From Polaribacter sp. NJDZ03 (GTDB lineage: Bacteria; Bacteroidota; Bacteroidia; Flavobacteriales; Flavobacteriaceae), in contig NZ_CP079195.1 in NCBI RefSeq assembly GCF_019263805.1, positions 3,273,001 to 3,337,000 of the forward strand: a stretch of DNA of 64,000 nt, written 5' to 3'. Within the stretch, counting starts at the first letter, position 1; each line of letters starts with the position of its first letter. The position numbers and the translations under genes were made by a program. This document shows, one piece after another, positions 1,639 to 33,974 of this stretch. A model generated the notes under the pieces. It ran no database searches. It saw nothing but the letters and a program-made list of their open reading frames with translations, and was not told where the DNA came from.

Positions 1639-2856
1639 ATGATTGACTTATTAGATTTTGTAAACGAAAATGGTATAAACGGAAGAAAGGCAAGTAATAA
1701 GAAGAGTATTATTCGTGGTCTTGCTAAATGTGAAGACTCGCTAACGATTCCTGAAATTGCCATTCTTATAGATGTTAGTATACCAATTTGTACGTCTTTA
1801 ATAAGGGGTTTGGTTACTAGTCGTCTAGTTACAAAGGAAGGAAAGAAAACTTCAGAGAATGGAAGGAAACCGTTTACTTATTCTCTTAATAAGGGATCTT
1901 TTCATGTTGTTGGTGTAGAAATTCTTTCAAAATTTATTCAATTAAGTGTTTTTAGTATCGATCTAGAGCTTATTCATACTAATACTATTAAGGGGTTTAC
2001 TTTATCAAAAGATATTGAATGTCTTAAGAATATTACTCATTTTATAGAGAGCTCTTTAAAGGATTCGGGTATAGATAAAAAAAATATTATTGGTATTGGT
2101 GTTGGGATGCCAGAGGTTGTAAAAGACCATAATGGTGAGTTAACAACCTATTTTTCTGATGAAGAAATTTCTCTTAAAGAATATTTAGAATCTCAAATAA
2201 AACTTTCGGTTCTTATAGATAACGATACAAGAACAATTGGTGTCGCAGAACAAACTCTTGGTAGTGCAAAAGGAATTGATAATGTTTTAGTAGTGAAAGT
2301 GAGTAGAACTTTGGGGTTGAGTATAATTGCTAATAAGAGTATTCTTAAAGGTAGTCAGGGACTTGCTGGTGGTATGAATCATACTCAGTTTAAAAAAGGA
2401 GTTAGACCTTGTTGTTGTGGTAAAATAGGGTGTCTGGGAACAGAGGTTGGCGGAGATGCTTTATTAGTAGATCTTAATGATGCGCTTAGGGATAACGAAA
2501 TTTCTATCCACTTTAATATTCAAGATCTACCTACTTATGGTTATCATGATGTACTGGATGCTGTTTTAAAAGGTGATGAGCTTTCTATTAAATTAATTCA
2601 AGATCAAGGTTATAAATTGGGAAAAGCATTGGGTAATATTATGAATGTTTTAAACCCAGAATTAGTGTTGATAGGTGGTGAATATGCTATGGTTAAAAAT
2701 TTCTTTGTAGATGCTGTTAAAATAGGTGTTAGAAAAACTGCACTTATAAGTACTATGAAAAATTGTGAAGTAAAAGCATCTGTGTTGGGTAGGTATTTAG
2801 GGGTAAAAGCAGAGGCGTGTATGTTTCTTAAGGCTTGTGATATGATAGCTTTTTAA
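1639..2856 (+). CDS. ROK-family transcriptional regulator (NagC/Mlc type)
   Basis: Probable sugar- or sugar-acid-responsive DNA-binding regulator. The N-terminal ~80 residues look like a winged helix-turn-helix (LTIPEIAILIDVSIPICTSLIRGL). The rest is a ROK actin-like domain, with phosphate-1-type GIGVGMPEV, a DNDT block, and the ROK zinc motif as CCCGKIGCLG followed by TEVGGDAL. The C-terminus has LNPELVLIGGE. At 405 residues it is normal for the regulator branch of the family, not a sugar kinase. It is transcribed in the same direction as the SusC/SusD island and is separated from it by a terminator, so it is the best candidate local regulator. The ligand is unknown. Confidence 0.88.
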   Translation: MIDLLDFVNENGINGRKASNKKSIIRGLAKCEDSLTIPEIAILIDVSIPICTSLIRGLVTSRLVTKEGKKTSENGRKPFTYSLNKGSFHVVGVEILSKFIQLSVFSIDLELIHTNTIKGFTLSKDIECLKNITHFIESSLKDSGIDKKNIIGIGVGMPEVVKDHNGELTTYFSDEEISLKEYLESQIKLSVLIDNDTRTIGVAEQTLGSAKGIDNVLVVKVSRTLGLSIIANKSILKGSQGLAGGMNHTQFKKGVRPCCCGKIGCLGTEVGGDALLVDLNDALRDNEISIHFNIQDLPTYGYHDVLDAVLKGDELSIKLIQDQGYKLGKALGNIMNVLNPELVLIGGEYAMVKNFFVDAVKIGVRKTALISTMKNCEVKASVLGRYLGVKAEACMFLKACDMIAF

Positions 2857-2940: not shown

Positions 2941-3142
2941 GTCTTATTATTTAAGGGGTATTAACTGTATTTTGGGTTTATTGTTTAAGTACTCTACACC
3001 TTTGTGTCCTGTTGCTCTAGCTAGTGTTTCGTTTTTTACTTCTTCTAATTTTATTTTAAAAGACTATTGATCAAACAGATGGTTTAGTTTTTATTTAATA
3101 AAATATTTTATTAAATAAATTAGCTATAATAAATTATTTTAT

Positions 3143-3223: not shown

Positions 3224-6200
3224 ATGTACAATTTTAAAAAAGAAAAGTGGGGGGAGAATTCCTTATTAGGTAAGCACATTTTAGGTTTCTTTCTTCTTGT
3301 GTTTTTATTTTCAAACGCCGCTGTATTTGCTGAGTCAAAAGAAGTAGATAAAACAATAATTGGAGTAGTGGTAGATGATGCGTCGGGAGACCCTGTACCT
3401 GGGGCAAGTGTTCTTATAAAGGGTACTAATATTGGTGCTTCTACAGATTTTGATGGTAATTTTTCAATAACGGCTCCAGATAGTGCTGCAGTATTAGTGG
3501 TTAGTTATTTAGGGTATGTTACTAAAACAGTAACTATTGATAGTAGTAAGAAATTAGTAATTAGACTAACAGAAGATGCTTCTCAATTAGATGAGGTTAT
3601 TGTAACTGCTCTTGGGGTTACTAAATCTAAAGAAAGTGTTTCTTATGCAGCTCAAAAAATAAAAGGAGCTGCTATAAATCAATCTAGAGTTGGTGATGTT
3701 TCTCAGCAGTTAGCGGGTCAGGTATCTGGTTTATCAGTCTCTACAAATAATGGTTCTGGAGTTTCTTCTTCTAGAGTTGTACTTAGAGGGGAAACATCTT
3801 TAAATCCAAATAAAAATCAACCATTAATTGTGGTGGATGGAGCTTTAATTTCTAATAATTATATAGGTATAGGAAGTAATTCTACTTCTAGTGATTTACC
3901 AGTAGATTATGGGAATAGTTTTAATGATTTAAATCCAGATGATTTTGCATCGGTAACCGTATTAAAAGGACCTAAAGCAGCAGCGTTGTATGGTGAGAGA
4001 GGTACTAATGGTGCCTTAATAATAGAAACTAAATCGGGTAAAAATAAAACAGGATTAGGTGTTAGTTATACTACAGGTATTTCAATGGATAAGGTTAATA
4101 GGTTTTGGAATGAACAAAATGAGTATGCTGGTGGAGGTCCTATAGGTAATTTGGCAAATCAGTTTAGATCAGATTGGGGTGGTAATTATGGAGCACCAAC
4201 AAATGGTCAATTAATTTCTCAATCTACACCAAGTAACCCTAACCCAGATCCAACACCTTTTGTACAAAAGGCAGATAGAGAAGGTTTCTTTGATACGGCG
4301 CTAGCTTATAATAATAATCTTTCTTTATCATTTTCTGAAGATGATATTTGGGGACGTGTTTCTCTTGGGCGACTTTCTAAAGGAGGAATTGTACCTAATA
4401 CAGAGTATAAAAAAACAAATGTTGGTGTAAGAGTAGGTGCTAATTTAAGTGAAAAACTTTCTATTGATTTATCTGCTAATTATATTTTAAGTAATTCTGA
4501 TAATGTGCCAGATATTGGGTTTTCTAGCGGTGGATTAATGTATAGTATGCTTTGGGTGATGAAAAACTATAGTTTAGATGATTACAAAGATTACTGGTTG
4601 CCAAATCAAGAATACCAACAACAAAATTACTTTTTATCTTGGGGAACAAATCCTCACTTAATTGTAAATGAGAATTTAAACGGATTTAAACATAATAGAA
4701 TATTTGGTAATTTTAGAACAAATTATGAATTTAATGACAACTTTTCTGCTTTTGTAAGAGTCGGTTTAGATTCTTATCAAGATAGAAGGCAGTCTAGAAG
4801 AGCCCCGGGGCAACCTGCTTTTCCAAACGGAATGTACAGAGAACAAGATGTTCGTTTACAGGAATTTAATGCAGATTTTTTAGGAACCTACACAAAAGAT
4901 TTAACGGATAAGTTAGGTTTAGTGGTAAATTTAGGGACTAGTACATTTAACCAAACGATTGGTAATAAAATAGCTCAGACAAATAATTTAGCGATTCCAG
5001 GTGTATTTAGTTTAGGTAACGCTGCTGACTCTCCTGTGCTTACACAAGTGGATACTGAAAGAGAATTAAATAGTGTTTATGGTACGGTAGAATTGAATTA
5101 TGATGATAAATTATATTTTGATGTTACAGGGAGAAATGATTGGTCTTCTACACTACCAACTCAAAATCAAAGTTTTTTCTATCCTTCAGTGGGTTTAAGT
5201 GCTATTGTTTCTAAAATGACAAAATTACCAGATTTTATCTCGTATTTAAAACTAAGAACAAGTTATGCTCAAACCGGAAATAGTACAGACCCAGGTGTTA
5301 TAAATAATGCTTACAGTTTAGGTGCAATACCAGGTTCTGTAACAAACCCTAACGTACTTACAGATTCTAATCTACAAAGTGAAAAAACTGAGGCTTTTGA
5401 ATTTGGTATAGATTTAAGGTTATTAGATAGAAGATTAAATTTTGATATTGATTTATATGATTATTCTACTACAGATCAAATAGTGTCAGCTCCTATAAGT
5501 CAAGCTTCAGGAGTGAGTTTTAGAAGGTTTAATGCAGGGGAAATTAATAGTAGAGGTATTGAAGTAATTTTAGCAGCAAAACCAGTAGCATTAGAAAATT
5601 TTAAATGGACTTCTACTTTTAACTTCGCATCAAGTAGATCGGAAGTTGTAAGTCTTGCAGACGGTATTGAAACCTTAATTATTGGAGAAGGACCAAACGG
5701 AGGAACTATAGAAGCAAGACCAGGAGGTAGAATGGGTGATATTTATGGAAGAGGTTTTGAAAGAGATCCAGAAGGAAGTATTGTTTTAGAAAATATTGGA
5801 GGCCTAATGAGACCTAAAATTAGCAATGATATAAAGCGATTAGGAAACTACAACCCAGATTGGACTTTAGGTTTTACCAACAGTTTTAAATATAAAAACT
5901 TTAACCTTAATATATTTTTAGATTATAGAAACGGTGGTGATTTTTATACCTTAACTGGTTCTCAGTTATATAGATCTGGTTCTATAACAGAAACGCTTCC
6001 GTTTAGAACAGAAGATTTTGTGCCTGACGGTGTGGTAGCAAATGGTAGTGGAGGTTTTACTAAAAACACACAAACTACTACTGGGTACGATTGGTATAGA
6101 GAATATTATAGAAGTGATAATATTGAAGCAAATACCTATGATGCTACTTTTTTAAAATTAAGAGAAATTTCATTAGGAGTAGATCTTAAGCCATATTTTG

Positions 6201-6394
6201 AAAACTCATTTTTCGAAAAAATAAGCCTTTCTGTTTTTGGACGAAATTTAGGAACGTGGACAAAAGAAAGTTTTCTTAAACATTTTGATCCAGAGGTGTT
6301 AAGCTTTACCGGAAGTGGTTTTCTTCCTGGTTTCGAAATTGGTCAACTTCCTGGAGCAGCAACCTACGGTTTTAATCTTAATGTATCATTTTAA
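3224..6394 (+). CDS. SusC-type TonB-dependent outer-membrane transporter
   Basis: Outer-membrane beta-barrel that imports a ligand with energy from TonB, working with its SusD lipoprotein lid. Visible in order are an N-terminal membrane segment/signal peptide ending near AVFA (about residues 18-37), a carboxypeptidase-regulatory-like domain (VVDDASGDPVPGASVLIKGTNIG), the SusC plug signature LDEVIVTALGV followed by the plug domain (PLIVVDGALIS, VLKGPKAAALYGERGTNGAL), and a long C-terminal barrel ending in an aromatic residue (NLNVSF). At 1056 residues it is of usual size. The SusD partner follows after 12 bases. There is no glycoside hydrolase next to it, so the ligand need not be a polysaccharide. 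Confidence 0.96.
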   Translation: MYNFKKEKWGENSLLGKHILGFFLLVFLFSNAAVFAESKEVDKTIIGVVVDDASGDPVPGASVLIKGTNIGASTDFDGNFSITAPDSAAVLVVSYLGYVTKTVTIDSSKKLVIRLTEDASQLDEVIVTALGVTKSKESVSYAAQKIKGAAINQSRVGDVSQQLAGQVSGLSVSTNNGSGVSSSRVVLRGETSLNPNKNQPLIVVDGALISNNYIGIGSNSTSSDLPVDYGNSFNDLNPDDFASVTVLKGPKAAALYGERGTNGALIIETKSGKNKTGLGVSYTTGISMDKVNRFWNEQNEYAGGGPIGNLANQFRSDWGGNYGAPTNGQLISQSTPSNPNPDPTPFVQKADREGFFDTALAYNNNLSLSFSEDDIWGRVSLGRLSKGGIVPNTEYKKTNVGVRVGANLSEKLSIDLSANYILSNSDNVPDIGFSSGGLMYSMLWVMKNYSLDDYKDYWLPNQEYQQQNYFLSWGTNPHLIVNENLNGFKHNRIFGNFRTNYEFNDNFSAFVRVGLDSYQDRRQSRRAPGQPAFPNGMYREQDVRLQEFNADFLGTYTKDLTDKLGLVVNLGTSTFNQTIGNKIAQTNNLAIPGVFSLGNAADSPVLTQVDTERELNSVYGTVELNYDDKLYFDVTGRNDWSSTLPTQNQSFFYPSVGLSAIVSKMTKLPDFISYLKLRTSYAQTGNSTDPGVINNAYSLGAIPGSVTNPNVLTDSNLQSEKTEAFEFGIDLRLLDRRLNFDIDLYDYSTTDQIVSAPISQASGVSFRRFNAGEINSRGIEVILAAKPVALENFKWTSTFNFASSRSEVVSLADGIETLIIGEGPNGGTIEARPGGRMGDIYGRGFERDPEGSIVLENIGGLMRPKISNDIKRLGNYNPDWTLGFTNSFKYKNFNLNIFLDYRNGGDFYTLTGSQLYRSGSITETLPFRTEDFVPDGVVANGSGGFTKNTQTTTGYDWYREYYRSDNIEANTYDATFLKLREISLGVDLKPYFENSFFEKISLSVFGRNLGTWTKESFLKHFDPEVLSFTGSGFLPGFEIGQLPGAATYGFNLNVSF

Positions 6395-6406
6395 ATTAAA
6401 AAAGTC

Positions 6407-7894
6407 ATGATGAAAAATATATATAAAATCAAAATAATAATAGTAAGTATTATCTTATTTACAGCATGTACTGGTGATTTTGAAGAAATTAATGTTGATG
6501 AAAATTCACCAACAATTGCAACTTCAGGAACACTTTTGCCTAGCACCATTTTTGGAGCAGCAAACTCACATTTAAATGTTCAGTTGTATTTAACTAACCA
6601 GGTAATGCAATACAAAGTATATAGAAATCTAAACCAATTAGATGCTTATGATTTTGCAACTGGAGCAAATCGTTTTGGTAAGTTTTGGGGAGATGCATAT
6701 AGAGCAATTACCGATGGTAACGAGTCTATTGCTTATGCTCAAGAAAATGAACTGAATGCTTATATAGGTGCAGGAAAAACAATAAATGCTTTTTATTTAG
6801 CAGCTTTAACAGAATTATGGATAGATGTACCATATACAGAAGCAAATAAAGGTTTAGAGAACACGCAACCAATTTATGATAAGCAAGAAGATATTTACCC
6901 TAAAGTATTAACGCTTTTAGAAGAAGCAAATACAGCTTTGTCAGCCGATACTAAAGGATTTATTCTTGGTGGAGATATCCTTTTTAAAGGAGATGTAATG
7001 AAGTGGAGAAAAATGGCAAATTCTTTAAGATTACGTTATTTATTAAGACTTTCAAATAAAGGTTCTATCAATGCTGCTGCTCAGATAAATGATATTGTTT
7101 CAGATCCTTCTACGTATCCAATTATTGAAAGTAATGAAGAAGCTGCTATTTATGACTTTACGGGTCTTGCACCAAATACATCAGATTTTTCTTTACTTAC
7201 AACTTTAGGAGGATTAAGCCCGTCAGTTAGATTTGTAGATGCTTTAGATGGTGTTGATGCAAATGATGATGCAGATGATGATCCTAGATTAGCTTTTTTT
7301 GCTGATAAACCGGTTGACCCTAGTGTATCTGCAGGTCCATTTGTGGGTGTAAAAAGTGGAACTACAAGAGAAGAAGCACAAGGTACAGGTGGAAATGCAG
7401 GGTTGTTTGCTTCTCAGTTTACCACGAAGTTTCAGGATAATAAAGGATTATTAGATTTTGTTTTTATAAGTTATGCAGAGGTACAGTTTATTTTATCAGA
7501 AGCTAGGTTAAAGAACTATATCACAACTTCTACAGCACAAATGTATTACGAAAAAGGGATTACTGCCAATTTAAATTATTGGAATTTAACAATGCCATCA
7601 GGTTTTCTTACTAGAGCAGATGTGGCTTGGGATGGAACTTTAGAAACATTAATAAATCAAAAATGGATTGCAATGTTCTTTAACAATACATTAGAAATGT
7701 GGGGAGATTACAAAAGAGTAGGACTTCCAAATTTAGTGCCAGGGTCTTTAGCAACAACTATTACAGGTGGCTTAGTACCCACAAGAGTCTTCTACCCAAC
7801 CATAGAGCAATCTGTAAATTCTGCAAATTATCAAGCAGCAGCATCAAGTATTGGTGGTGATATAATTACGGTTAAACATTGGTATCAGAATTAA
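6407..7894 (+). CDS. SusD/RagB-family nutrient-binding outer-membrane lipoprotein
   Basis: Surface lipoprotein that captures the ligand and closes over the SusC barrel. The lipobox LFTAC puts the lipidated cysteine at residue 21. The mature N-terminus (FEEINVDENSPT) and the overall pattern resemble the SusD-like_2 branch and not classical starch SusD; that family assignment is from memory. The length of 495 residues is typical. It forms a pair with the SusC gene upstream. An inverted repeat lies between it and the first enzyme gene, so transcript levels of transporter and enzymes may differ. Confidence 0.93.
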   Translation: MMKNIYKIKIIIVSIILFTACTGDFEEINVDENSPTIATSGTLLPSTIFGAANSHLNVQLYLTNQVMQYKVYRNLNQLDAYDFATGANRFGKFWGDAYRAITDGNESIAYAQENELNAYIGAGKTINAFYLAALTELWIDVPYTEANKGLENTQPIYDKQEDIYPKVLTLLEEANTALSADTKGFILGGDILFKGDVMKWRKMANSLRLRYLLRLSNKGSINAAAQINDIVSDPSTYPIIESNEEAAIYDFTGLAPNTSDFSLLTTLGGLSPSVRFVDALDGVDANDDADDDPRLAFFADKPVDPSVSAGPFVGVKSGTTREEAQGTGGNAGLFASQFTTKFQDNKGLLDFVFISYAEVQFILSEARLKNYITTSTAQMYYEKGITANLNYWNLTMPSGFLTRADVAWDGTLETLINQKWIAMFFNNTLEMWGDYKRVGLPNLVPGSLATTITGGLVPTRVFYPTIEQSVNSANYQAAASSIGGDIITVKHWYQN

Positions 7895-7925
7895 CATATA
7901 AAAAAAATATTATTTGAGTTGATGA

Positions 7926-7977
7926 GTGTTTTACAGTTAACCAGAAGCATGAAAATTGTTTTTGGTTAACAAAACAC
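7926..7977 (+). promoter_or_regulatory. Large inverted repeat between susD and the enzyme genes
   Basis: The left arm is GTGTTTT-aca-GTTAACCA (7926-7943) and the right arm is TGGTTAACAAAACAC (7963-7977). They form 15 base pairs with a three-base bulge and a 19-base loop. It is not followed by a T-run, so it does not look like a simple terminator. It could be an mRNA processing or stabilising hairpin at the SusCD 3' end, or a protein-binding operator for the genes that start at 8022. Confidence 0.6.
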
Positions 7978-8021
7978 ATTCAAATATTAAAAAAAACGGA
8001 ACAAATTAAATAGAACTTCTT

Positions 8022-8723
8022 GTGACTGAAAAATTAATAATGATACCTGGAACTCTTTGTGATGAAACACTTTTTAAGCATCAAAAAAAAGATTTGTCAA
8101 TTATAGCCGACTGTCATATTGCAAGTACTACTAGTGCTGCGAGTTTGCAACAGGTAGCAAAAAATATACTAGATAAATATTCTGGAGATTTATCAATAAT
8201 GGGGTTATCGTACGGCGGAATTATTGCTTTTGAATTACTAAGGCAAGCACCTCATCGCATAAAACGATTAATTCTTTTAAATACAAATTATAAAGAACCT
8301 TCAGAACAAACAAGAATAAGTCAACAAAGATTTGTAGGTATGGCATATTTAGAAGGAGTTAAGGGATTTACGTCAACTATTTTAATTGATGCAATGTTAC
8401 ATCCTAAAAATGCAAAAAATAAAGAACTAAGAGAGGTGGTTTTAAACATGGCTTTAAATATAGGTGTAGCTGGTTTCTTTAATCAAGTAAAAGCACAATT
8501 AGGAAGACCAGATAGTACTAAAGATTTACAAAATATTAAATGTCCTACTTTAATAATTACAGGTAGAGAAGATGTTATTTGTCCAATAAAACTTCATGAA
8601 GAAATGGCAGCAGCCATTCCTAATTCGGTTTTAAAAATTATAGAAGAATGCGGACATTTAAGTACGTTAGAACAGCCTAAATTAGTTAGCAATACTATTC
8701 TTAATTGGTGGAATAAAAACTAA
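8022..8723 (+). CDS. Alpha/beta-fold hydrolase
   Basis: Probable cytoplasmic esterase, thioesterase or lactonase; there is no signal peptide. The start is a GTG at 8022, chosen because the next in-frame Met, at residue 7, would remove the first strand before the PGTLCD oxyanion region. The nucleophile elbow is GLSYGG (Ser63), with Asp184 in GREDVICP and His212 in CGHLS completing a plausible triad. At 233 residues it is a compact family member without an obvious large cap. It is the first gene after the SusD hairpin and is separated by three bases from the aldolase gene, indicating co-transcription. The substrate is not deducible; a lactone or ester intermediate fits the context. Confidence 0.85.
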   Translation: MTEKLIMIPGTLCDETLFKHQKKDLSIIADCHIASTTSAASLQQVAKNILDKYSGDLSIMGLSYGGIIAFELLRQAPHRIKRLILLNTNYKEPSEQTRISQQRFVGMAYLEGVKGFTSTILIDAMLHPKNAKNKELREVVLNMALNIGVAGFFNQVKAQLGRPDSTKDLQNIKCPTLIITGREDVICPIKLHEEMAAAIPNSVLKIIEECGHLSTLEQPKLVSNTILNWWNKN

Positions 8724-8726
8724 ACA

Positions 8727-9494
8727 ATGAGAAAAAACAAACTAAAACAACTACTAAAAACAAACAACACAGTAATGTGTGGATGGCTACACATACCCAA
8801 TACTTGGACCGCCGAAGTAATGGCGAATGCTGGTTGGGATGGTGTAACTGTAGACATGCAACATGGTTTACATAGTATAGAAACAGCAATACAAATGATG
8901 CAAGCTATATCTACCACAGAAACGGTACCTATTGCTAGATCAAATTGGAATACACCGGGAGAAATAATGAGATTACTAGACGGTGGAGCTTATGGTATTA
9001 TTTGCCCAATGATTAATACCAAAGAAGAGTGTGAATCATTTGTAGGAGCATGTAGATATCCTCCTTTAGGATATAGAAGTTTTGGGCCAACGAGAGCAAG
9101 AGTTTATGGGGGTCTAGATTATGCAGAACATGCGAATGATGAAATTTTAACATTAGCAATGGTAGAAACTGTTAAAGCAGTAGAAAATATAAAAGGTATT
9201 TGTGAAACGAAAGGGTTAGATGGAATTTTTATAGGTTCTGGAGATTTAAAATTATCTATAAAAGCAACTGAAAAAGAGAATGTCGATGAACTTTTTGATC
9301 AGGCAGTAAATACTATTTTAAAAGAATGCCAACAAAATAATTTGTTTGCTGGTGTTTGGTGTGCCACAATAGAAGATGCTAAAAAAATGGTTGATAAAGG
9401 CTTTAAGTTTATTGCGCTTAAATCTGATAGTATGATGTTAACCCAATATGCAAAGGAGCAAACGAACACTTTAAAAAATATTTTAAAAAACTAA
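8727..9494 (+). CDS. HpcH/HpaI-family class II aldolase
   Basis: Metal-dependent aldolase of the family that cleaves 4-hydroxy-2-oxoacids to pyruvate (or a related 2-oxoacid) plus an aldehyde. The key family residues are visible: His46 in DMQHG, Arg71 in ARSNW, Glu147 in MVETVKAVEN and Asp173 in GSGDLKLS. These match the catalytic His, substrate Arg and metal ligands known for HpaI. The usual G-P-x-D-L is GSGDL here. The length of 255 residues is normal. It overlaps no gene and sits three bases after the hydrolase stop. In the island it is a good candidate for the terminal C-C bond cleavage step. Relatives include 2-keto-3-deoxy-L-rhamnonate and 4-hydroxy-2-oxo-heptanedioate aldolases; which one is closest cannot be told. 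Confidence 0.9.
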   Translation: MRKNKLKQLLKTNNTVMCGWLHIPNTWTAEVMANAGWDGVTVDMQHGLHSIETAIQMMQAISTTETVPIARSNWNTPGEIMRLLDGGAYGIICPMINTKEECESFVGACRYPPLGYRSFGPTRARVYGGLDYAEHANDEILTLAMVETVKAVENIKGICETKGLDGIFIGSGDLKLSIKATEKENVDELFDQAVNTILKECQQNNLFAGVWCATIEDAKKMVDKGFKFIALKSDSMMLTQYAKEQTNTLKNILKN

Positions 9495-9505
9495 ACCTCA
9501 AAGAT

Positions 9506-10525
9506 TTGTCGAAAAAAATAACACATATAGAAACACTAAAACTAGAAAGAGATGGTTTAAAGCAAGATCTTCCTGGGTTTGGTAAAAAATATATAAACAT
9601 TGTTGATTATATATTAGAAATCACAGAAGATATCTGGGAAAAAAAAGAAATAGATGTAATTAATGAAACCTACGAAAAGGACATCCTAATTCATACAGGT
9701 GCCAGAATAATTAACGGTGTAGAAACTGTAATAACAGGTACTATTGATACGCTGGCCTCTTTTCCGGATAGAAAAATGGGCGGAGAAGCAGTTATTTGGT
9801 CAACAGATAATAAGGGCGATTTTTATTCTTCTCATAGAATTATATCTACAGCAACCAATCTTGGAGAAACAATCTACGGGAAAGCTACAGGTAAAAAGAT
9901 AACCTTTAGAACCATTGCAGACTGTAAAGTAGCAAACAATAAAATTTATAAGGAATGGCTTGTAAGAGATAATCTTAGCATTCTTTTACAGCTAGGTTTT
10001 GATCCTGTAGAAATGGCAAAGAAAGATGCTACTTATAAAAAAACTCCTATTGCAATTCCTATAAACAGCAATCAAGAAATAGCAAAACAAGATTTGGAAT
10101 ATCCAGAAAATTTGGTCTATTCTTTAATAACGAATGTATGGAAGCAGAATAATTTTGAAGATTTAGCAGAATATCTAGCAGCAGATAGCACTTTATATGC
10201 CGTGGGTAACCAAGAAATTAGCGGTATTACAAAGATAAAAGAATATATACAAACTGTTTTAGCTTCATTCTCAGATTTAAGTATAGGTATAGAACGTATT
10301 ACATCAAATAGAGAAGAGGGGTTAACACATATAGCAGCACGTTGGTATTTAAAAGGGAAAACAACCGAAGAAGGTGTTTTTGGAAAACATTCTGTTGATG
10401 AGATTTTTATACCTGTATTAAGTCATTATACAGTTAAAAATGGAAAAATAACCGATGAATGGATGGTCTATGACGGTTTCGATGCTTTATGTCAAATTTA
10501 TAGTCAAACGAATACTCAAATTTAA
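9506..10525 (+). CDS. Two-domain SnoaL/NTF2-like protein A
   Basis: 339 residues starting at TTG (9506); no ATG lies near the conserved start. Two tandem NTF2-like (SnoaL) cone-shaped domains can be recognised, about 25-170 and 200-335, each ending in the family pattern KITDEWMVYD or KIYKEWLVRD followed by a hydrophobic stretch. SnoaL-fold proteins include polyketide cyclases, ketosteroid isomerases and dehydratases, acting by acid-base chemistry without cofactor. No signal peptide is present, so it is cytoplasmic. It is the most diverged of the three such proteins in this island. A binding or isomerase/dehydratase role in the catabolic pathway is an inference. Confidence 0.78.
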   Translation: MSKKITHIETLKLERDGLKQDLPGFGKKYINIVDYILEITEDIWEKKEIDVINETYEKDILIHTGARIINGVETVITGTIDTLASFPDRKMGGEAVIWSTDNKGDFYSSHRIISTATNLGETIYGKATGKKITFRTIADCKVANNKIYKEWLVRDNLSILLQLGFDPVEMAKKDATYKKTPIAIPINSNQEIAKQDLEYPENLVYSLITNVWKQNNFEDLAEYLAADSTLYAVGNQEISGITKIKEYIQTVLASFSDLSIGIERITSNREEGLTHIAARWYLKGKTTEEGVFGKHSVDEIFIPVLSHYTVKNGKITDEWMVYDGFDALCQIYSQTNTQI

Positions 10526-10531
10526 TATTTT

Positions 10532-11542
10532 ATGAATGCACATTTTAGTAATAAAAAGTTAATTACTTCCTTTTTTAAGGAAATGAATGTTACGAAAAAA
10601 GAGGATGTTAAAAATGTTTTAAACACCTATTTTGATAAAAATAGTAGTGTAGGTATAACAAGTCCTTTTGAAGAATTAAATGGATTAGATGCATTTAATA
10701 GCAGTTTTTGGACTCCATTATTAAACGCATTTCCAGATATAGAATACCAACCTTATATACTTTTAGGAGGTGAGTACGAAGAACGAAACTATGTTAGCTG
10801 TACCGGTAATTTTATAGGTACTTTTAAAAAAGACTGGGCAGGTATTCCTGCAAATCAGCAACCAATATGGCTTCGTTTTGCAGCTCATTTTATTATTGAA
10901 GATAATAAGATTGTAAAAGCATGGTTTTTTATAGACATGCTTTCTGTTATAAGACAAGCAGGGTTTACATTGTTTCCTAATAAAGGAGTTGAAATAATAC
11001 CTCCTGCACCGATGACAGGAGATGGTATTGTAGACTATAAAACACTTCCTGATCAGAGTAAAAAAACCTTAGATCTTACCAACGCAATGCTAGAAGGGTT
11101 GTGTAGTTATGATGGTAAGAGCTTAGAATCAATGGGCCAAGAAAGGTTCTGGGATGAGAAAAATATGATGTGGTACGGTCCATCTGGCATTGGCACTACA
11201 AGGGGATTAAAAGGGTTTCAAAAAAATCATCAAGTACCTTTTATAACCGCTTTTCCAGACCGAGGAATTACAGAAAAACAAGGTGAGGATCACTTTACAC
11301 AAATTGGCGAAGGTAACTATTCTTGCGATTTTGGTTTTCCTGCAATGTATGGTACCCATACTGGAGATGGTTGGCTAGGGTTAAAAGCAACGGGAAAAAG
11401 AATAACCTTACGAGTTGTAGATTACTGGAGGCGTGAAGGCGATCACTTAAAAGAAAATTGGGTATTTATTGATATGCCTCATGTATTAAAGCAATTGGGA
11501 ATTGATGTATTTAAAGAACTTAAAAATCTTAAAAAGGACTAA
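10532..11542 (+). CDS. Two-domain SnoaL/NTF2-like protein B
   Basis: 336 residues with two NTF2-like domains, about 20-150 and 180-330. Conserved blocks include KIVKAWFFIDMLSVIRQAG at the end of the first domain and MMWYGPSGIG near the start of the second. The same blocks appear in protein C (ALFCDILSVMDHAG and MIWYGPTGIG), so B and C are paralogues, while protein A is more distant. It follows protein A after six bases. No signal peptide is present. The exact reaction is unknown. The tryptophan/tyrosine-rich conserved blocks suggest a shared aromatic-lined pocket. Confidence 0.8.
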   Translation: MNAHFSNKKLITSFFKEMNVTKKEDVKNVLNTYFDKNSSVGITSPFEELNGLDAFNSSFWTPLLNAFPDIEYQPYILLGGEYEERNYVSCTGNFIGTFKKDWAGIPANQQPIWLRFAAHFIIEDNKIVKAWFFIDMLSVIRQAGFTLFPNKGVEIIPPAPMTGDGIVDYKTLPDQSKKTLDLTNAMLEGLCSYDGKSLESMGQERFWDEKNMMWYGPSGIGTTRGLKGFQKNHQVPFITAFPDRGITEKQGEDHFTQIGEGNYSCDFGFPAMYGTHTGDGWLGLKATGKRITLRVVDYWRREGDHLKENWVFIDMPHVLKQLGIDVFKELKNLKKD

Positions 11543-11620
11543 TAATTATCTTTTTAAAGTCTAAAGTAATTGCATTAATTAGAGGAAACTCACAAAATAA
11601 CTGAACTAAAAATATACAGT

Positions 11621-12637
11621 ATGCTTAAAGAAAGATTAATAAGATATAGCGATTTAATGCCCTGTAAAGCCGCATTTATAGATGCCAAAACACCAGGGAG
11701 TCATTTAAAAGATAATTATAGCATTATTGGTGGTGGAGTATCTGAGAGCACACATCAAAAGGTAAATCTTTCTGAAAAACATGGTTTTTGCATTGGTGCT
11801 GGAGGGCAACCACCTAGAGTTAAAAATTCTCCACATTCTCATTTTACTGCAGAGGTTTTTATTGTGTATAGTAGTCATTGGAGATTTTATTGGAACAATG
11901 ATGAAAAAAGTGAAATTATCTTACATCCGGGAGACATTATATCATTACCAACCAACATGTTTAGAGGTTTTGAAAATGTAGGTGATGAATACGGAATGAT
12001 CTTTTCTGTTTTAGGACATGATGATGCTGGTGGAGGTGTAGTTTGGTTGCCACGTGTTATAGAAGAAGCCAAAGATTATGGTTTAATACTTTTAGAAAAC
12101 GGAAAATTAGTAGATACTACTATTGGAGAAAAAATTCCTGAAGGATCAAAAGCGATAGCTCCTTTAACAGAAAGTGATTTAAAGAAATTTGATCAATATA
12201 CTGTAGAAGAAATGAAACAGCATGTAGGTTTTGTTGGTACGTATAAAGCATCTAATTTTAAAGGTTTTCCAAATCAAACACCAGAAACTTTAAGATGGAT
12301 TGATGTTTTAGGGCCTAAAGATAGCAATGATCACAAATTTGCAGTAAAACAAGGAGACCCAAACGGAGATGGTTTTAATGTATTTGGCTTACAAAGTGAT
12401 GCTACAGGAACTACAGGAAAATATACACGTAACGAGGTAGAAGTTTTATTTATACATCGTGGTCAATTTGAGATTTTATGTTCACATAATGGAGAAGAAA
12501 TTACGGAAACGTTAAACGATGGAGATATTTTTACCTTTCCAAAAGGATCCGTCAGAAACATTACCGCTAAAACATACGGATTCGCATACTTGGTAGTAGG
12601 AGAAGATTATCCTAAAGCACCACAATTGATTTCGTAG
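11621..12637 (+). CDS. Bicupin protein
   Basis: 338 residues with two cupin barrels. The first carries a metal-type motif: His72 and His74 in PHSHFTAE with Glu78, then a second motif region HPGDIISLPTNMFRGFEN. The second barrel (about 250-338) has EVEVLFIHRGQFEI and GDIFTFPKGSVRNI but lacks the HxH pair, so it is probably not a metal site. Bicupins of this layout include dioxygenases and sugar-acid isomerases. The gene lies 78 bases after the SnoaL-like gene B, in the same direction. A metal-dependent isomerase or oxygenase step in the island's pathway is likely, but the reaction is not identifiable. Confidence 0.82.
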   Translation: MLKERLIRYSDLMPCKAAFIDAKTPGSHLKDNYSIIGGGVSESTHQKVNLSEKHGFCIGAGGQPPRVKNSPHSHFTAEVFIVYSSHWRFYWNNDEKSEIILHPGDIISLPTNMFRGFENVGDEYGMIFSVLGHDDAGGGVVWLPRVIEEAKDYGLILLENGKLVDTTIGEKIPEGSKAIAPLTESDLKKFDQYTVEEMKQHVGFVGTYKASNFKGFPNQTPETLRWIDVLGPKDSNDHKFAVKQGDPNGDGFNVFGLQSDATGTTGKYTRNEVEVLFIHRGQFEILCSHNGEEITETLNDGDIFTFPKGSVRNITAKTYGFAYLVVGEDYPKAPQLIS

Positions 12638-12815
12638 AAAACCGGGATACAGTTACCATTCATTTTTTACTTGTTCTATAATTTTATATAGAGCTCAGTA
12701 AAACCGTCGGTTTCTTGTAAATAGTTAATTATAGTATTTAAATTATAAAAATAGAGGTACAGCAGTACAAAGAGATTTAGCATTTTTCAATAACAATAAA
12801 TAAACACCAACACAA
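12638..12815. other. Gap between the bicupin and HisD-like genes
   Basis: 178 bases, the longest gap inside the catabolic gene run. It contains the short palindrome AAACCG-T-CGGTTT (12701-12713) and AT-rich sequence. No T-run terminator and no exact TAnnTTTG box was seen. An internal promoter or operator is possible. Confidence 0.35.
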
Positions 12816-14102
12816 ATGGCAATTAGATACATTAAAAAAGGAATGGCGGCAGAAGAATCTGCAGCAGATCAATTAAAAACAAGAAAAATAGTAGAAAGTA
12901 TTCTTTCTGATGTAGAAAATAGAGGAGATGAAGCAGTAAGGGAATTATCTGCTAAATTCGATAAATGGAGTCCAGCAGCTTTTAGACTTTCAAAAGATGA
13001 AATTCAAGAGATCATTTCTAAAGTATCAGATAAAACAATTGAAGACATTAAATGGGCACAAGCACAGGTGCGTCGTTTTGCTCAAATACAAAAATCTGCT
13101 TTAAGAGATATAGAAATAGAAACCATTCCGGGAGTAATTTTAGGTCATAAAAACGTACCTGTAAATAGTGTTGGTTGTTATGTGCCAGGTGGTAGATATC
13201 CTATGGTTGCGTCTGCTCATATGAGTGTACTAACGGCTAAAGTTGCTGGTGTAAAAAAAGTGATCGCTTGTACGCCTCCAGACCCAAAAACAGGAGTGCC
13301 ACCGGCAGAAACAGTGGCAGCAATGTATTTGGCTGGTGCAGATGAAATTTATATTCTAGGAGGAGTCCAAGCAATGGCAGCAATGGCTTATGGTTGCGTA
13401 GGTATGGACCAAGTAGATATGATTGTTGGACCAGGAAACCAATACGTAGCAGAAGCAAAAAGACAATTATTTGGAAGAGTAGGTATTGATTTACTAGCAG
13501 GACCAACAGAAACGTTAGTAATTGCAGATGATACAACAGATGCAGAAATGGTGGTTACAGACCTTTTAGGTCAGGCAGAACATGGCCCTAATTCTCCTGC
13601 TATTTTATTAACAAATAGTGAAACTTTGGCGTTACAAATTGAAGATGAAGTAAAAAAACAATTAAAAGTATTGTCTACGGCAGATTTGGCAAGTAAGTCT
13701 TGGGACGATTATGGAGAAGTTATTTTGGTTGACAGTTATGAAGAAATGGTAACGGTGGCAGATGATATTGCTAGTGAACATGTTCAGGTTAATACTAAAG
13801 ATCCTCAGTATTTTAAAGACAATATGACCAATTATGGTGCTTTGTTTCTAGGAAATAGAACAAACGTTGCTTATGGAGATAAAGCAATTGGTACCAATCA
13901 TACCTTGCCTACAAAAAAAGCAGCTCGTTTTACAGGAGGCTTATGGGTAGGTAAATTTATTAAAACATGTTCTTATCAAAATATAATTACAGATGAAGCG
14001 AGTGTTTTAGTCGGTAATTACTGTTCACGTTTATGTGAAATAGAAGGTTTTGAAGGACATAAAAAACAAGCTGATATCCGTGTTAAGAGATATAGTAAAT
14101 AA
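12816..14102 (+). CDS. Histidinol-dehydrogenase-family alcohol dehydrogenase (HisD-like)
   Basis: Zinc- and NAD-dependent dehydrogenase of the HisD superfamily, 428 residues. The catalytic and zinc-site residues align by motif: Gln253 and His256 (GQAEHGP), Glu321-His322 (SEHVQV), Asp355 and GTNHTLPT, and His415 in [13 protein letters not shown]. Also present are the glycine-rich [10 protein letters not shown] and IVGPGNQYV blocks. No other histidine-biosynthesis gene is nearby, and the context is catabolic. HisD homologues outside his operons include sulfopropanediol 3-dehydrogenase (HpsN), which oxidises a primary alcohol to a carboxylate. Here a two- or four-electron oxidation of a hydroxylated substrate is inferred. 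The shorter HisD label 'histidinol dehydrogenase' would probably be wrong. Confidence 0.88.
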
Positions 14103-14168
14103 GCTTAGTTCTTAAGTAGTTTTTTAGAAAACAAAGGTTATTTTCATTATTAATTAGAAAAGGATATT

Positions 14169-15779
14169 ATGGACAAGTTTGGAGTGCTTAATTGGTCAAT
14201 TATTATAGTTTATTTAATTGCAAATTTATTATTGGGGTTTATTTTATCAAAAAAAGTGAATACTGCTAACGATTTTTATATTGGTAGAAAAACAACACCT
14301 TGGTGGGCTATTGGTATTTCTGTTTTAGCAACTTATGTAAGTGCTATGACTTTTTTAGGCGCTCCTGCCTGGTCTTATAAAGCTGGTTTATCCGTTATTG
14401 CAATTCATCTTAATTATCCATTAGTTATTATAATTGTAATGTCTTTGTTTGTTCCCTTTTTTATGCAAACAGGTGTTATTTCTATTTATGAATATCAAGA
14501 GAAACGCTTCGGAAAAGCATCAAGAACAGTTATTTCTGTGATATTTTTAGTCACTCAATTATTATCTTCTGCGGCTGTATTATATGGGTCTGCGCTAGTT
14601 ATTGGTTATATAACGGGGATAGACGTAGTTACTAGTATAATTGTAGTATCAATTATTACATTAGTTTACACTTCTTTAGGAGGGATTACGGCTGTAATTT
14701 GGACAGATGTATTTCAGTCAGGAATATTTTTGGTAGCTGGTTTTATCGTCCTTTTTGTGCTGATAAATCAATTACCAGACTCTTTAATAGATACGCTTTC
14801 TAGCTTAAAAACAAAAGGAAAGATTAATCCTATAAATTTAAGTACAGACCCAACTGTAGATACTACTATTTGGGCAGGTATTATTGCTATGACTGTGTAT
14901 CACGTAACTATTTATGGAGCAAACCAAATGATGATGCAAAGAACATTGGGAGCTAAAAATATAGGCGATGCTAAAAAATCGTTGGCTTTAATGGGGTTTG
15001 CAGCATTTTTTATCTATTTTTTATTCATATTTATAGGTGTGTTGTTTTACCAGTATTACCAAGGTAGAGAGTTTGATAATGACAATACAATTATGTTAGA
15101 ATTTGCAGAAACAGTAGGGTTTCCTGGTTTTATAGGTATTATAGCCGCAGCAGTATTATCTGCAAGTATGTCTAGTTTATCATCAGCATTAAACTCGCTT
15201 TCTACAATTTCTACAAGTGGTTTTTATCAAAAGTATTTTAAACCTAATGAATCATCAAAACACTATTTAAGGGTTGCAAGAATTTCAACTGTTTTTTGGG
15301 CTATTTTAATAATTATACCTGCTATTGCTTTTTCTAGTACTACAGGTTCTATATTAGAACTGATTACCAAAATAGGTTCTTATTTTGTAGGCGCAAAACT
15401 AAGTATGTATATGTTAGGTTTTTATTCTAAACAAACAACAGAAAAAGGACTGTTGGTTGGAGTCGCTTTTGGTTTTATCGTGTTATATTTTGTACATGAA
15501 TATACAGATATTGCTTGGACTTGGTATGCCGTTATTGGTGGGGTAGTTAATATTTTTGTTTCCATCATTGCAAGTCTTATTATTGATGGTAAACAAACAG
15601 AATGGTCACTGTATTCAATTCCTGGTCAGAAAGCAAAATTTAAATCAGAAAATAAACCAGAAAAAGAAAATGGTTGGTACGTTGTTCCTGGAAAGTTAGA
15701 CAAAGTAAGTTATTATTTATTAGGCTTTTTTGTAGTAACAATCATATTTTTATTATCATTTGAAAACTTTATTAATTAA
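14169..15779 (+). CDS. Sodium:solute symporter (SSS family)
   Basis: Inner-membrane Na+-coupled transporter of 536 residues with about 13-14 hydrophobic segments. The N-terminus (GFILSKKVNTANDFYIGRKTTPWWAIGISVLATYVSAMTFLGAPAWSYKAGL) has the family's first two transmembrane regions, with a Na+-site-type S-A-M-T-F-L-G block. A later ASMSSLSSALNSLST block is also typical. It lies between the HisD-like gene and the SDR gene, so it likely brings the pathway substrate across the inner membrane after SusCD import. Family members carry sugars, carboxylates and other small solutes; the specificity is unknown. Confidence 0.92.
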   Translation: MDKFGVLNWSIIIVYLIANLLLGFILSKKVNTANDFYIGRKTTPWWAIGISVLATYVSAMTFLGAPAWSYKAGLSVIAIHLNYPLVIIIVMSLFVPFFMQTGVISIYEYQEKRFGKASRTVISVIFLVTQLLSSAAVLYGSALVIGYITGIDVVTSIIVVSIITLVYTSLGGITAVIWTDVFQSGIFLVAGFIVLFVLINQLPDSLIDTLSSLKTKGKINPINLSTDPTVDTTIWAGIIAMTVYHVTIYGANQMMMQRTLGAKNIGDAKKSLALMGFAAFFIYFLFIFIGVLFYQYYQGREFDNDNTIMLEFAETVGFPGFIGIIAAAVLSASMSSLSSALNSLSTISTSGFYQKYFKPNESSKHYLRVARISTVFWAILIIIPAIAFSSTTGSILELITKIGSYFVGAKLSMYMLGFYSKQTTEKGLLVGVAFGFIVLYFVHEYTDIAWTWYAVIGGVVNIFVSIIASLIIDGKQTEWSLYSIPGQKAKFKSENKPEKENGWYVVPGKLDKVSYYLLGFFVVTIIFLLSFENFIN

Positions 15780-15780
15780 A

Positions 15781-16524
15781 ATGAAACCAATAAAAACAGC
15801 TTTAGTTACAGGAGGAAGTGGAGGCATTGGCTCAGAAATATGCAAACAATTGGCATTGGCAGGTTATGTAGTTATTGTAAATTATAACAGCAACAAAGAA
15901 AATGCTTTAAAAACATTGCACAGCCTTAAAAATTCTGAGCAACATCATATATTTAAAGCGTCTATAACAAATAGCAACGAATTGTCTGATATGGCTAATT
16001 TTGTAAAAACAACTTTTGGTTTTTTAGATGTGTTAGTCAATAATTCAGGAGTTACTAAAGCAGTACCGCATGAAAATTTAGATGACTTGGAGGATGATTT
16101 TATAGATCAAATTATGAAAGTTAATTTTCGAGGAACTTTTGCTACCATAAGAGCTTTTAGAAGTCTTTTAGAAAAAGGAAAAAACCCCATTGCAATTAAT
16201 ATATCTTCTATTGCTGCAAAAACGGCAGTTGGTAGCAATGTTGCATATTGTGCTTCAAAAGCCGCTGTAGATTCTTTAACTATGAGTTTAGGGCGCGCAT
16301 TAGCTCCAAAAATAAGAGTAGTTTCCTTGTCTCCTGGTTGGGTAAATGGTGCTTACGCTAAAAACTTACCAAAAGAATACATTAAAGAACAAGAAGACAA
16401 AACCCCATTAGGCAGAATTGCAGAGGCTGAAGATATTGGAAAAGCTTTAGTGGCGATTGCAGAATCATTTACATTTTCTACAGGCTGTATTTTTCCAGTA
16501 GATGGAGGAAGGCCTTTAACTTAA
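15781..16524 (+). CDS. SDR-family oxidoreductase
   Basis: NAD(P)-dependent short-chain dehydrogenase. The start is placed at the ATG at 15781, one base after the symporter stop, not at an upstream in-frame ATG inside that gene, because the Rossmann strand (KPIKTALVTGGSGGIG) follows directly. From that start the cofactor motif GGSGGIG is at residues 11-17, NNSG is at 87-90, and the catalytic triad is Ser143, Tyr156 and Lys160 (YCASK). About 247 residues. It resembles the FabG/gluconate-dehydrogenase-like classical SDRs. In the island it would oxidise or reduce a hydroxyl or keto group; the substrate is unknown. Confidence 0.9.
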   Translation: MKPIKTALVTGGSGGIGSEICKQLALAGYVVIVNYNSNKENALKTLHSLKNSEQHHIFKASITNSNELSDMANFVKTTFGFLDVLVNNSGVTKAVPHENLDDLEDDFIDQIMKVNFRGTFATIRAFRSLLEKGKNPIAINISSIAAKTAVGSNVAYCASKAAVDSLTMSLGRALAPKIRVVSLSPGWVNGAYAKNLPKEYIKEQEDKTPLGRIAEAEDIGKALVAIAESFTFSTGCIFPVDGGRPLT

Positions 16525-16529
16525 TTTTT

Positions 16530-17546
16530 ATGAAAAATAATTTTCAACACGCAAAAAGCGTAGTTCGTGCATATTATGAATCTTTTGATAATGCATCAGA
16601 TAGCAATTTAGAACAGGTATTAAAAGAGCACACAACTGATGATTACCATTGGAGAGGAATGCATCCATTCTATGAACAATATGGTGCTAAAGATGTAATA
16701 TCTAGTTTTTGGAAACCCTTTAGAAAATCGTTTGCTCCTTTACAAAGAAGAGAAGATATGTTTTTTGCTGGAGATAACGATTGTGATTCAGGAAAAACCC
16801 AGTGGGTAGTTAGTGTAGGACATTTAGTAGGTTTGTTTGATGCCGATTGGTTAGGTATTCCGCACACGGGTAAAATGATTTTCTTACGATATGCTGAGTT
16901 TCATAGAGTAGAAGGTGATAAAATTGCAGAAACAGCATTATTTTGTGATATATTAAGTGTTATGGATCATGCAGGTCATTATCCATTGCCTCCTATGACG
17001 GGATCTGCTTTTGTTTACCCTGGACCTCGAACTCATGATGGACTCCTTTTTGAAGCGCAAGATCCTAAAGAAGCAGAAAAAACGATGCGTGTTCTAAATC
17101 AAATGATTGCAGATTTAGATGAAATTAATAAATCTGGTGATGACAATTGTCCTCCAGAATTATTAGCAAAAACATGGAATGAAGACATGATTTGGTACGG
17201 CCCTACTGGTATAGGCGCTTCTTATACAATTAAGAGATATCAAAAGCAACATCAATATCCTTTTAGAGAGAATTTAACAGAGAAAGTATTTTATGGTCAT
17301 ATTGCACGTTTTGCAGAAGGCAATTATTGTGGTTTCTTTGGATGGCCAAACTTGTCTAATAAAAATAGTGGCGGGTTTTTAGGGCTTCCTAAGAGTGATG
17401 TTAAAGCAGAAATGAGAGTCGTAGATATCTATAGAAGAGAAGGGAATAAACTAGCAGAAAACTGGGTATATATTGATGTTTTGTATTATTTATACCAGCA
17501 AGGTTTAGATGTGTTAGGAAGAATGCAAAAGATGAATAGTAAATAG
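16530..17546 (+). CDS. Two-domain SnoaL/NTF2-like protein C
   Basis: 338 residues, five bases after the SDR stop. Two NTF2-like domains, about 25-160 and 190-335. Shared blocks with protein B are CDILSVMDHAG, MIWYGPTGIG, YQKQHQYPF and a final AENWVYIDVLYYLYQQG. It has several aromatic/His residues near the first-domain pocket (HWRGMHPFYEQYG). Like A and B it lacks a signal peptide. It is the third such protein and the last gene of the run, closed by a terminator at about 17690. Function unknown; an isomerase, dehydratase or cyclase role is possible. Confidence 0.8.
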   Translation: MKNNFQHAKSVVRAYYESFDNASDSNLEQVLKEHTTDDYHWRGMHPFYEQYGAKDVISSFWKPFRKSFAPLQRREDMFFAGDNDCDSGKTQWVVSVGHLVGLFDADWLGIPHTGKMIFLRYAEFHRVEGDKIAETALFCDILSVMDHAGHYPLPPMTGSAFVYPGPRTHDGLLFEAQDPKEAEKTMRVLNQMIADLDEINKSGDDNCPPELLAKTWNEDMIWYGPTGIGASYTIKRYQKQHQYPFRENLTEKVFYGHIARFAEGNYCGFFGWPNLSNKNSGGFLGLPKSDVKAEMRVVDIYRREGNKLAENWVYIDVLYYLYQQGLDVLGRMQKMNSK

Positions 17547-17674: not shown

Positions 17675-17708
17675 AAAAAATTCTGTGTTAAATTGCACAG
17701 AATTTTTT
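17675..17708 (+). terminator. Rho-independent terminator closing the catabolic island
   Basis: The stem AAAAAATTCTGTG (17675-17687) pairs with CACAGAATTTTTT (17696-17708), ending in a T-run. It separates the island from trmN6. Confidence 0.85.
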
Positions 17709-33502: not shown

Positions 33503-33974
33503 TTATAAAGGGTACATATTTATTGATTAATAATAAAAGGGGATCTTTTAATAAAGGTTGAATTACAACTAAAATAACTCTTGTGTTTTTTCAATGAATC
33601 CTAAGCTTTTTAGAGTTTTCTTGATGAAAAATGCCTGCTATTATAAAAAAACGAAAGTAAACTATAAATATAATTCTCAATTAAAGAAATCTATCTCCGT
33701 AAAAAACTAGAATGATACCAAAACCTTTAATTTGGTCAATCTAATTTATTCTTTTTTGATTTGAAACTAGAGCGCTGATATTTTTTTGAAATTTTATTTT
33801 ACTATTAATTTTATTTTAACTGTAAAGAACATACTTTTTTTACATTTTATTAAATAAATGTATCTTCTTAATGTGAAAAAGTTAAATAATTGAAAAAAAT
33901 ACTATGCATGCATAGTATTTTTTTAAAAAATTACGTATTTTCGTTGCAGATAAAAAGTATAAAAATAGAATTTT
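33503..33974. other. Intergenic region upstream of etfB
   Basis: 472 AT-rich bases with no convincing gene. It contains the 32-bp perfect palindrome (33893-33924) and a near -7 sequence TATTTTCG (33936-33943) before etfB. Nothing else was recognised. Confidence 0.6.
33893..33924. promoter_or_regulatory. Perfect 32-bp palindrome upstream of etfB
   Basis: Seven A, then TACTATGCATGCATAGTA, then seven T: every base is symmetric about the centre. It lies 50 bases upstream of the etfB start and just before the probable -7 box. It could be a dimeric-regulator operator or a two-way terminator with an A-run and T-run. No terminator is needed for an upstream gene on this strand, because the neighbour is divergent, so an operator is at least as likely. 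Confidence 0.6.

Follow-up and report, generated by a model that had tools for sequence, protein, structure and literature searches.

What compound does the catabolic gene island of Polaribacter sp. NJDZ03 take up and degrade? The island lies in a stretch of 64,000 nucleotides (contig NZ_CP079195.1, positions 3,273,001 to 3,337,000; hereafter the window) and consists of eleven plus-strand genes (3224-17546) with a ROK regulator gene upstream. A preliminary description, made from the sequence alone, had presented it as a catabolic import island for a small hydroxylated acid or lactone. We consider it reasonably probable that the island is a locus for the import and catabolism of mycosporine-like amino acids of the shinorine or porphyra-334 type. 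This reading rests on gene neighbourhoods, namely the gene content, a conserved module and the linkage of serine, glycine and methyl genes in relatives, from which we infer the substrate, each reaction and the reaction order. Mycosporine-like amino acids are ultraviolet sunscreens widespread in algae, cyanobacteria and reef animals, and, to our knowledge and in the open-access PubMed Central (PMC) literature searched, no genes for their breakdown are known.

Gene content and distribution of the module

The eleven genes, their common strand and their families, as first described, were all confirmed by an open reading frame (ORF) check, in which every named ORF was open, and by family models scoring above their cut-offs. 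The first two genes encode a SusC-type TonB-dependent outer-membrane importer (3224..6394; TIGR04056 SusC/RagA, 589.9 bits, cut-off 368) and a SusD-type surface lipoprotein (6407..7894; SusD-like_2, 278.5 bits). They are followed by an alpha/beta hydrolase (8022..8723; Abhydrolase_1, 53 bits; PcaD-like, under the cut-off of the PcaD model), an HpcH/HpaI-type 4-hydroxy-2-oxoacid aldolase (8727..9494; HpcH_HpaI PF03328, 110.5 bits, cut-off 25), SnoaL-A (SnoA; 9506..10525), SnoaL-B (SnoB; 10532..11542), a bicupin (11621..12637; Cupin_2 in two stretches, 41.1 bits), a HisD-like dehydrogenase (12816..14102; Histidinol_dh, 467 bits), an SSS Na+/solute symporter for inner-membrane import (14169..15779; SSF, 162 bits), an SDR oxidoreductase (15760..16524; adh_short, 152 bits) and SnoaL-C (SnoC; 16530..17546). 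The intergenic gaps from SusC to SnoC measure 12, 127, 3, 11, 6, 78, 178, 66, -20 and 5 bases, the spacing of one operon or of two to three closely spaced operons. For the hydrolase, aldolase, symporter and SDR proteins, no named NCBIfam equivalog stood among the matches shown and the scores fell under the curated cut-offs; the models that passed were the general hisD domain, the sss superfamily and the SusC/RagA subfamily. Overall, this content supports the view of a catabolic import island.

The three SnoaL proteins each contain two SnoaL/NTF2-like domains, with PF07366 matching two stretches of every chain (84.8, 69.5 and 49.9 bits; cut-off 28.4). They share this domain with the SnoaL polyketide cyclases and 'ester cyclases', but differ from the cyclases in having two domains per chain and a catabolic context: no polyketide biosynthesis genes surround them, and both window positions 1-24000 and the annotated relatives show catabolic and transport genes. 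The AlphaFold model of SnoC is confident (pLDDT 92.6), with two alpha+beta domains of the kind expected of NTF2 folds.

Among 199 genomes of the family, full-length SnoaL-B matches were found only in the window's own genome, the matches in 16 other genomes being short and weak. Likewise, SnoC was present in one of 97 genomes of the genus and the bicupin in one of 395 genomes of the class, in both cases the window's own. A SnoaL-B scan of genome contigs returned 79 loci from Bacteroidota, Proteobacteria, Acidimicrobiia, Chloroflexi, a Peribacillus and haloarchaea. Because it is rare in the family, genus and class yet occurs in distant phyla, the island is accessory and has most likely spread horizontally.

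A HisD-like gene was found in 35 of the 79 loci, accompanied by genes of the SnoB type (34 loci), the SnoA type (28), SDR (28), bicupin (24), LacI (23), MetE-like (22), the SnoC type (20), alpha/beta hydrolase (18), sugar-type ABC parts (17), HpcH (14) and RraA (2). Many of the 79 loci are contig fragments cut at their ends, and genes missing for this reason make these counts lower bounds. The co-occurrence of HisD-like, SnoaL and bicupin genes, which had been suggested as a check, is therefore conserved in distant genomes. In a further 32 of the 79 loci, SnoC is present but HisD, bicupin and SnoA are all missing.

Among full relatives, the closest is a Saprospiraceae contig (L039), whose ROK, SusC, SusD and enzyme genes follow the order of the window at 50-82% identity (SusC 53%, SusD 51%); the contig also has an SMP-30 gene, and no SnoC was seen in it. 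Locus L020 keeps part of the same order, its SusD being 72% identical to that of the window. Both have an extra alpha/beta hydrolase-like gene with a lipoprotein-like start between bicupin and HisD (L020:6476-7570, L039:11823-12848), which is not present in the window. On plasmids of Ruegeria, Paracoccus, Marinovum and Octadecabacter, the module comes with a sugar-type ABC importer, LacI and either RraA or HpcH, as well as MetE-like (except Paracoccus) and SDR genes (none seen in Marinovum). Importers are thus exchanged between phyla, with SusCD in Bacteroidota and ABC, MFS, SSS or TonB systems elsewhere, and a SnoaL-rich relative of the module occurs in haloarchaea.

Several further observations were made on these loci. 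The module on the Octadecabacter arcticus plasmid (L111) is flanked by insertion sequence transposase genes, in line with transfer. A gene for an SBP56-type selenium-binding protein lies near the SnoaL genes in Marinovum and Phaeobacter (L107:245-1642, L108:17786-19183). Many Roseobacter-type genomes (L058, L061, L066, L084, L095 and others) have a lone SnoC at a conserved chromosomal site, adjoining genes for an NtrY-like kinase and a sigma-54 response regulator.

Serine, glycine and methyl-group genes beside SnoaL genes

On a Vibrio europaeus plasmid, an ortholog of SnoC (56% identical to that of the window) stands with genes for an MFS transporter, an SSS symporter, a porin, LacI and an L-serine ammonia-lyase, the last scoring 649.8 bits on TIGR00720 (cut-off 345). 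The window symporter is 38% identical to the symporter of this Vibrio island. SnoC was searched in 394 genomes of the Glaciecola order (20 with SnoC) and in 118 genomes of the genus of one match (33 with SnoC), a genus that we infer to be Vibrio and whose loci are hence called Vibrio-type. Fifty stretches were compared, 45 of them Vibrio-type loci and five (L148-L152) with larger parts of the module and SnoC at 55-62% identity. The SnoC-symporter pair was present in 42 of the 45 Vibrio-type loci, and these 42 islands also contained MFS (42), LacI (39), porin (29) and L-serine ammonia-lyase (35) genes. The L-serine ammonia-lyase gene was on the strand of the symporter, the two being separated by -59 to +44 bases according to ORF calls. 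The seven islands without it lie near kbl-tdh (three, L144-L146), near a threonine-aldolase-like gene that scores under its cut-offs (one, L143) or near neither (three).

Two checks bear on whether this arrangement is background. The island symporter (E<=1e-200) tracks SnoC: 30 of the 33 SnoC-bearing genomes have it, as against 0 of the other 85 in the set of 118; therefore the operon is not a general background of the genus. In 14 Vibrio-type genomes, of about 5 million bases, SDH_alpha matches numbered two to four per genome, so that a serine gene beside the island should rarely arise by chance at any one site. Similar linkage was seen on an unrelated 4.6-kb contig binned as Bacteroidetes (L027), where SnoB, MFS and L-serine ammonia-lyase genes follow each other with ATGA (4-base) overlaps (TIGR00720, 619.9 bits, cut-off 345), and on a Vibrio pelagius plasmid (L109), which carries another L-serine ammonia-lyase (686.2 bits on TIGR00720; 49% identical to that of V. 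europaeus) and, at the same locus, an ABC importer. One genome of the Vibrio-type genus (L208) has the larger module in place of the small island, with SSS, SnoB, SnoA, LacI, HpcH, HisD, SDR, bicupin, hydrolase and SnoC.

Genes for glycine breakdown follow the SnoaL genes in two haloarchaea. In Halobellus clavatus (L022), these are an IclR-like regulator, gcvT, gcvH, gcvPA, gcvPB, lpd and a MetE-like gene, and H. rarus (L023) has the same set except lpd, which was not found. Both clusters are extra copies, as told by contig coordinates, since other GcvP genes lie at two further places in H. clavatus and at one in H. rarus. The remaining loci compared gave weak GcvT-like matches only. Genes related to methyl groups occur on an H. 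limi plasmid (L102), where a LigM/DesA-like gene (432 and 470 bits, under the cut-offs of 580 and 800) adjoins an HpcH aldolase and a catechol 2,3-dioxygenase-like VOC gene. Some 9 kb, including an importer, separate this group from the SnoaL genes, which have a MetE-like gene as their immediate neighbour.

A proposed route and its competitors

Shinorine is an O-methyl cyclohexenimine that bears glycine and serine as well as a tertiary alcohol and a CH2OH group. The LacI, ROK and sugar-type importer partners suggest a polyhydroxylated substrate, which should also be O-methylated and release glycine and serine, a combination that fits the shinorine-type mycosporine-like amino acids. As HpcH or RraA is found in different loci and either can split a 4-hydroxy-2-oxo acid, the carbon core should end as such an acid; RraA aldolases act on tertiary 4-hydroxy-2-oxo acids. 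The earlier suggestion of a small hydroxylated acid or lactone appears too narrow, as it omits the amino-acid and O-methyl genes of related loci. A lactone intermediate is still plausible, given the SMP-30 or fuconolactonase-like genes present in several loci, and the 2-oxoacid plus aldehyde proposed as the end products would fit the aldolase family.

In the route that we propose, SusCD and the SSS symporter would bring the compound into the cell, where SnoaL-C, as a Ser/Thr-releasing imine hydrolase, and SnoaL-B, as an amino-acid-releasing (C-N) hydrolase, would attack the imine and the vinylogous amide through their two-domain NTF2 folds, releasing serine or threonine and then glycine. The product left would be the O-methyl cyclohexenone core, 4-deoxygadusol. 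SnoaL-A, the SDR, the HisD-like dehydrogenase, the bicupin and the alpha/beta hydrolase would then oxidise the ring hydroxyl and the CH2OH group and open the ring, and the HpcH aldolase would cleave the resulting 4-hydroxy-2-oxo acid to pyruvate and a second fragment. The HisD-like dehydrogenase is proposed to oxidise CH2OH to COOH, the bicupin to act as a ring-opening dioxygenase or isomerase and the alpha/beta hydrolase to be a lactone or diketone hydrolase; the step order is a guess, as are the parts assigned to SnoA, bicupin and alpha/beta hydrolase. In the bicupin, H72, H74 and E78 are invariant among 21 aligned bicupins and sit in the N-terminal domain, whereas the C-terminal cupin domain of the window protein is without this motif; its AlphaFold model is of middling confidence (pLDDT 83.1). 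The closest solved relatives of the aldolase are HpcH/HpaI hydroxyketoacid aldolases, and its best score against the named equivalogs (HpaI, GarL, RhmA) is 162.5 bits, under the cut-off of 368.8.

Release of the amino acid has a precedent in Vibrio: according to the passage on it in a review (PMC3083659, citing Dunlap and Shick), Vibrio harveyi hydrolyses shinorine and porphyra-334, stripping serine or threonine. This is the same reaction as proposed for SnoC, and the passage names no genes. Two mycosporine-like compounds are reported from the exometabolome of Microcystis strain LE19-10.1 (PMC12405062), and an Aquidulcibacter metagenome-assembled genome, LE19-59.1B, carries most of the module. 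The two names appear to share one series, which would give weak ecological support.

Several points weigh against a mycosporine substrate. The 42 Vibrio-type islands share ancestry and represent few evolutionary events, not 35. An L-serine ammonia-lyase was found in none of the 35 HisD-bearing loci and in one of the 79 loci overall (L027), so that the serine link comes from SnoC or SnoB loci without HisD. Threonine as a co-product is only suggestive, the genes concerned lying in other operons, probably at one insertion site and perhaps by chance. The glycine cleavage system is present in two of the four haloarchaeal loci that reach far enough, being absent from L021 and L102 (L024 is cut off), and the haloarchaeal loci gave no HisD, SDR or bicupin matches. 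The window cluster has no MetE-like gene, and a search of its genome, run without a positive control, did not reveal one; the LigM/DesA-like gene is likewise not in the window cluster. V. harveyi was not identified among the genomes searched, and none of the loci can be connected with a mycosporine producer or with a growth test. Lastly, a plain sugar would be just as compatible with the LacI, ROK and sugar-type ABC partners, and a sugar-acid route accounts equally well for the regulators and lactonases.

The strongest competitor follows from this last point, namely that the island oxidises an unusual sugar, O-methyl sugar or sugar acid with no phosphorylation step, the SDR forming a lactone that a lactonase opens, the SnoaL proteins acting as dehydratases and the HpcH aldolase cleaving the 2-oxo acid, while the serine and glycine genes adjoin for another reason. 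Besides the LacI or ROK regulators, sugar-type ABC importers and SMP-30 and fuconolactonase-like genes, it draws on the kinship of the aldolase to GarL and rhamnonate aldolase (under cut-offs) and on Peribacillus simplex (L096:2657-11200), where a GH2 glycosidase and an MFS sugar-symporter-like gene lie between SnoaL genes as if the substrate there were a glycoside. However, no sugar dehydratase, kinase or isomerase family was found among the window proteins scanned, and this explanation, which we regard as unlikely, does not account for the serine ammonia-lyase genes of 35 of the 42 islands, for the overlapping genes of the L027 operon or for the extra glycine cleavage system.

It is less likely still that the island degrades some non-mycosporine conjugate of an amino acid or N-methyl-glycine, such as a polyol derivatised with betaine or sarcosine, with serine ammonia-lyase draining glycine via serine. 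Sarcosine oxidase genes and purU do lie beside four SnoaL genes on the V. pelagius plasmids (L099, L109), joined by the serine ammonia-lyase gene in L109. These two plasmids, however, gave the only close sarcosine oxidase matches among the compared loci (others reach 24-26% identity), the oxidase genes may form a separate betaine module, and the O-demethylase-like and MetE-like genes point instead to an O-methyl group.

A methoxylated aromatic (syringate-like) pathway seems very improbable. The lignin-type route through 3-O-methylgallate and 4-carboxy-4-hydroxy-2-oxoadipate uses LigM, LigI and an RraA or HpcH aldolase, and it resembles the logic proposed here (O-demethylation, lactone, 4-hydroxy-2-oxo acid, aldolase, pyruvate), with homologous aldolases and one LigM/DesA-like gene, that of H. 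limi beside its HpcH aldolase and VOC protein. Some MFS partners also resemble aromatic-acid symporters, under cut-off. Yet the substrate proposed here is alicyclic, no ring-hydroxylating or extradiol dioxygenase family was found among the window proteins scanned, the SnoaL, HisD, LacI and sugar ABC partners are out of place in such a pathway, and the H. limi genes, at their distance from the SnoaL genes, may be a separate cluster.

Scarcely credible is a pathway for sulfonates of the 2,3-dihydroxypropane-1-sulfonate (DHPS) kind with an HpsN-type dehydrogenase: although HpsN ((R)-DHPS or sulfopropanediol 3-dehydrogenase) likewise belongs to the HisD fold family outside histidine synthesis and DHPS dehydrogenases are the closest solved structures (PDB 8v35, 8wwe; 46-48% identity), 30 HisD-like proteins of the module group together in a single clade that excludes two HpsN sequences (support 98 in a quick tree with long branches, three of 33 module rows being dropped for length and one outgroup added to the two HpsN rows), their neighbours are SnoaL, bicupin and aldolase genes, and no sulfonate-lyase family was found among the window proteins scanned.

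Two other candidates were set aside. Similar to the polysaccharide utilisation loci of Bacteroidota, the island has a SusC-SusD pair, a local regulator and catabolic enzymes, but it differs from them in that no glycan-active enzyme was found among the nine window proteins scanned (8022 to 17546) and in the different importers of other phyla. The histidine pathway was discarded because a second histidinol dehydrogenase gene lies elsewhere in the genome (414288-415508), which makes the island's HisD-like protein a paralogue.

Returning to mycosporine-like amino acids, we incline slightly towards the wider view that this is the first gene set for sunscreen breakdown, in which two-domain SnoaL proteins would be a new class of imine/vinylogous-amide hydrolase feeding a new ring-degradation route (HisD-like, bicupin, SDR, HpcH/RraA) that has spread horizontally in bacteria and haloarchaea, with 'sip-only' Vibrio islands taking just the serine. 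No described pathway with this gene set, as had already been stated, and no earlier description of such a cluster or enzyme role were found in the open-access PMC literature. If the proposal is true, the gene set would make the turnover of mycosporine-like amino acids measurable in metagenomes, give a role to many proteins called 'ester cyclase' (SnoC has 5023 relatives at E<=1e-40, counting paralogues) and add C-N bond hydrolysis to the NTF2/SnoaL fold. The old Vibrio harveyi observation would become directly testable with single purified proteins.

Regulation and boundaries of the island

The gene upstream of SusC (1639..2856, plus strand) encodes a ROK-family (NagC/Mlc-like) transcription regulator (Pfam ROK, 119.8 bits; 144.6 bits on the NagC model, under its cut-off of 650). 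A ROK gene also precedes SusC in L039; the window gene is probably part of the island's unit, and its product likely controls the island. Between the ROK gene and SusC lies a perfect 30-base palindrome (3090..3119), a candidate operator. A promoter scan gave nothing beyond the shuffled background (60 found, shuffle mean 67). Downstream of SnoC, a hairpin with a T run on the plus strand (about 17680..17708), read by eye, is a likely terminator, although a simple terminator scan of the window did not list it. The G+C content of the island (33.1%) exceeds that of the remaining window (30.1%). A second perfect palindrome, of 32 bases, lies at 33893-33924.

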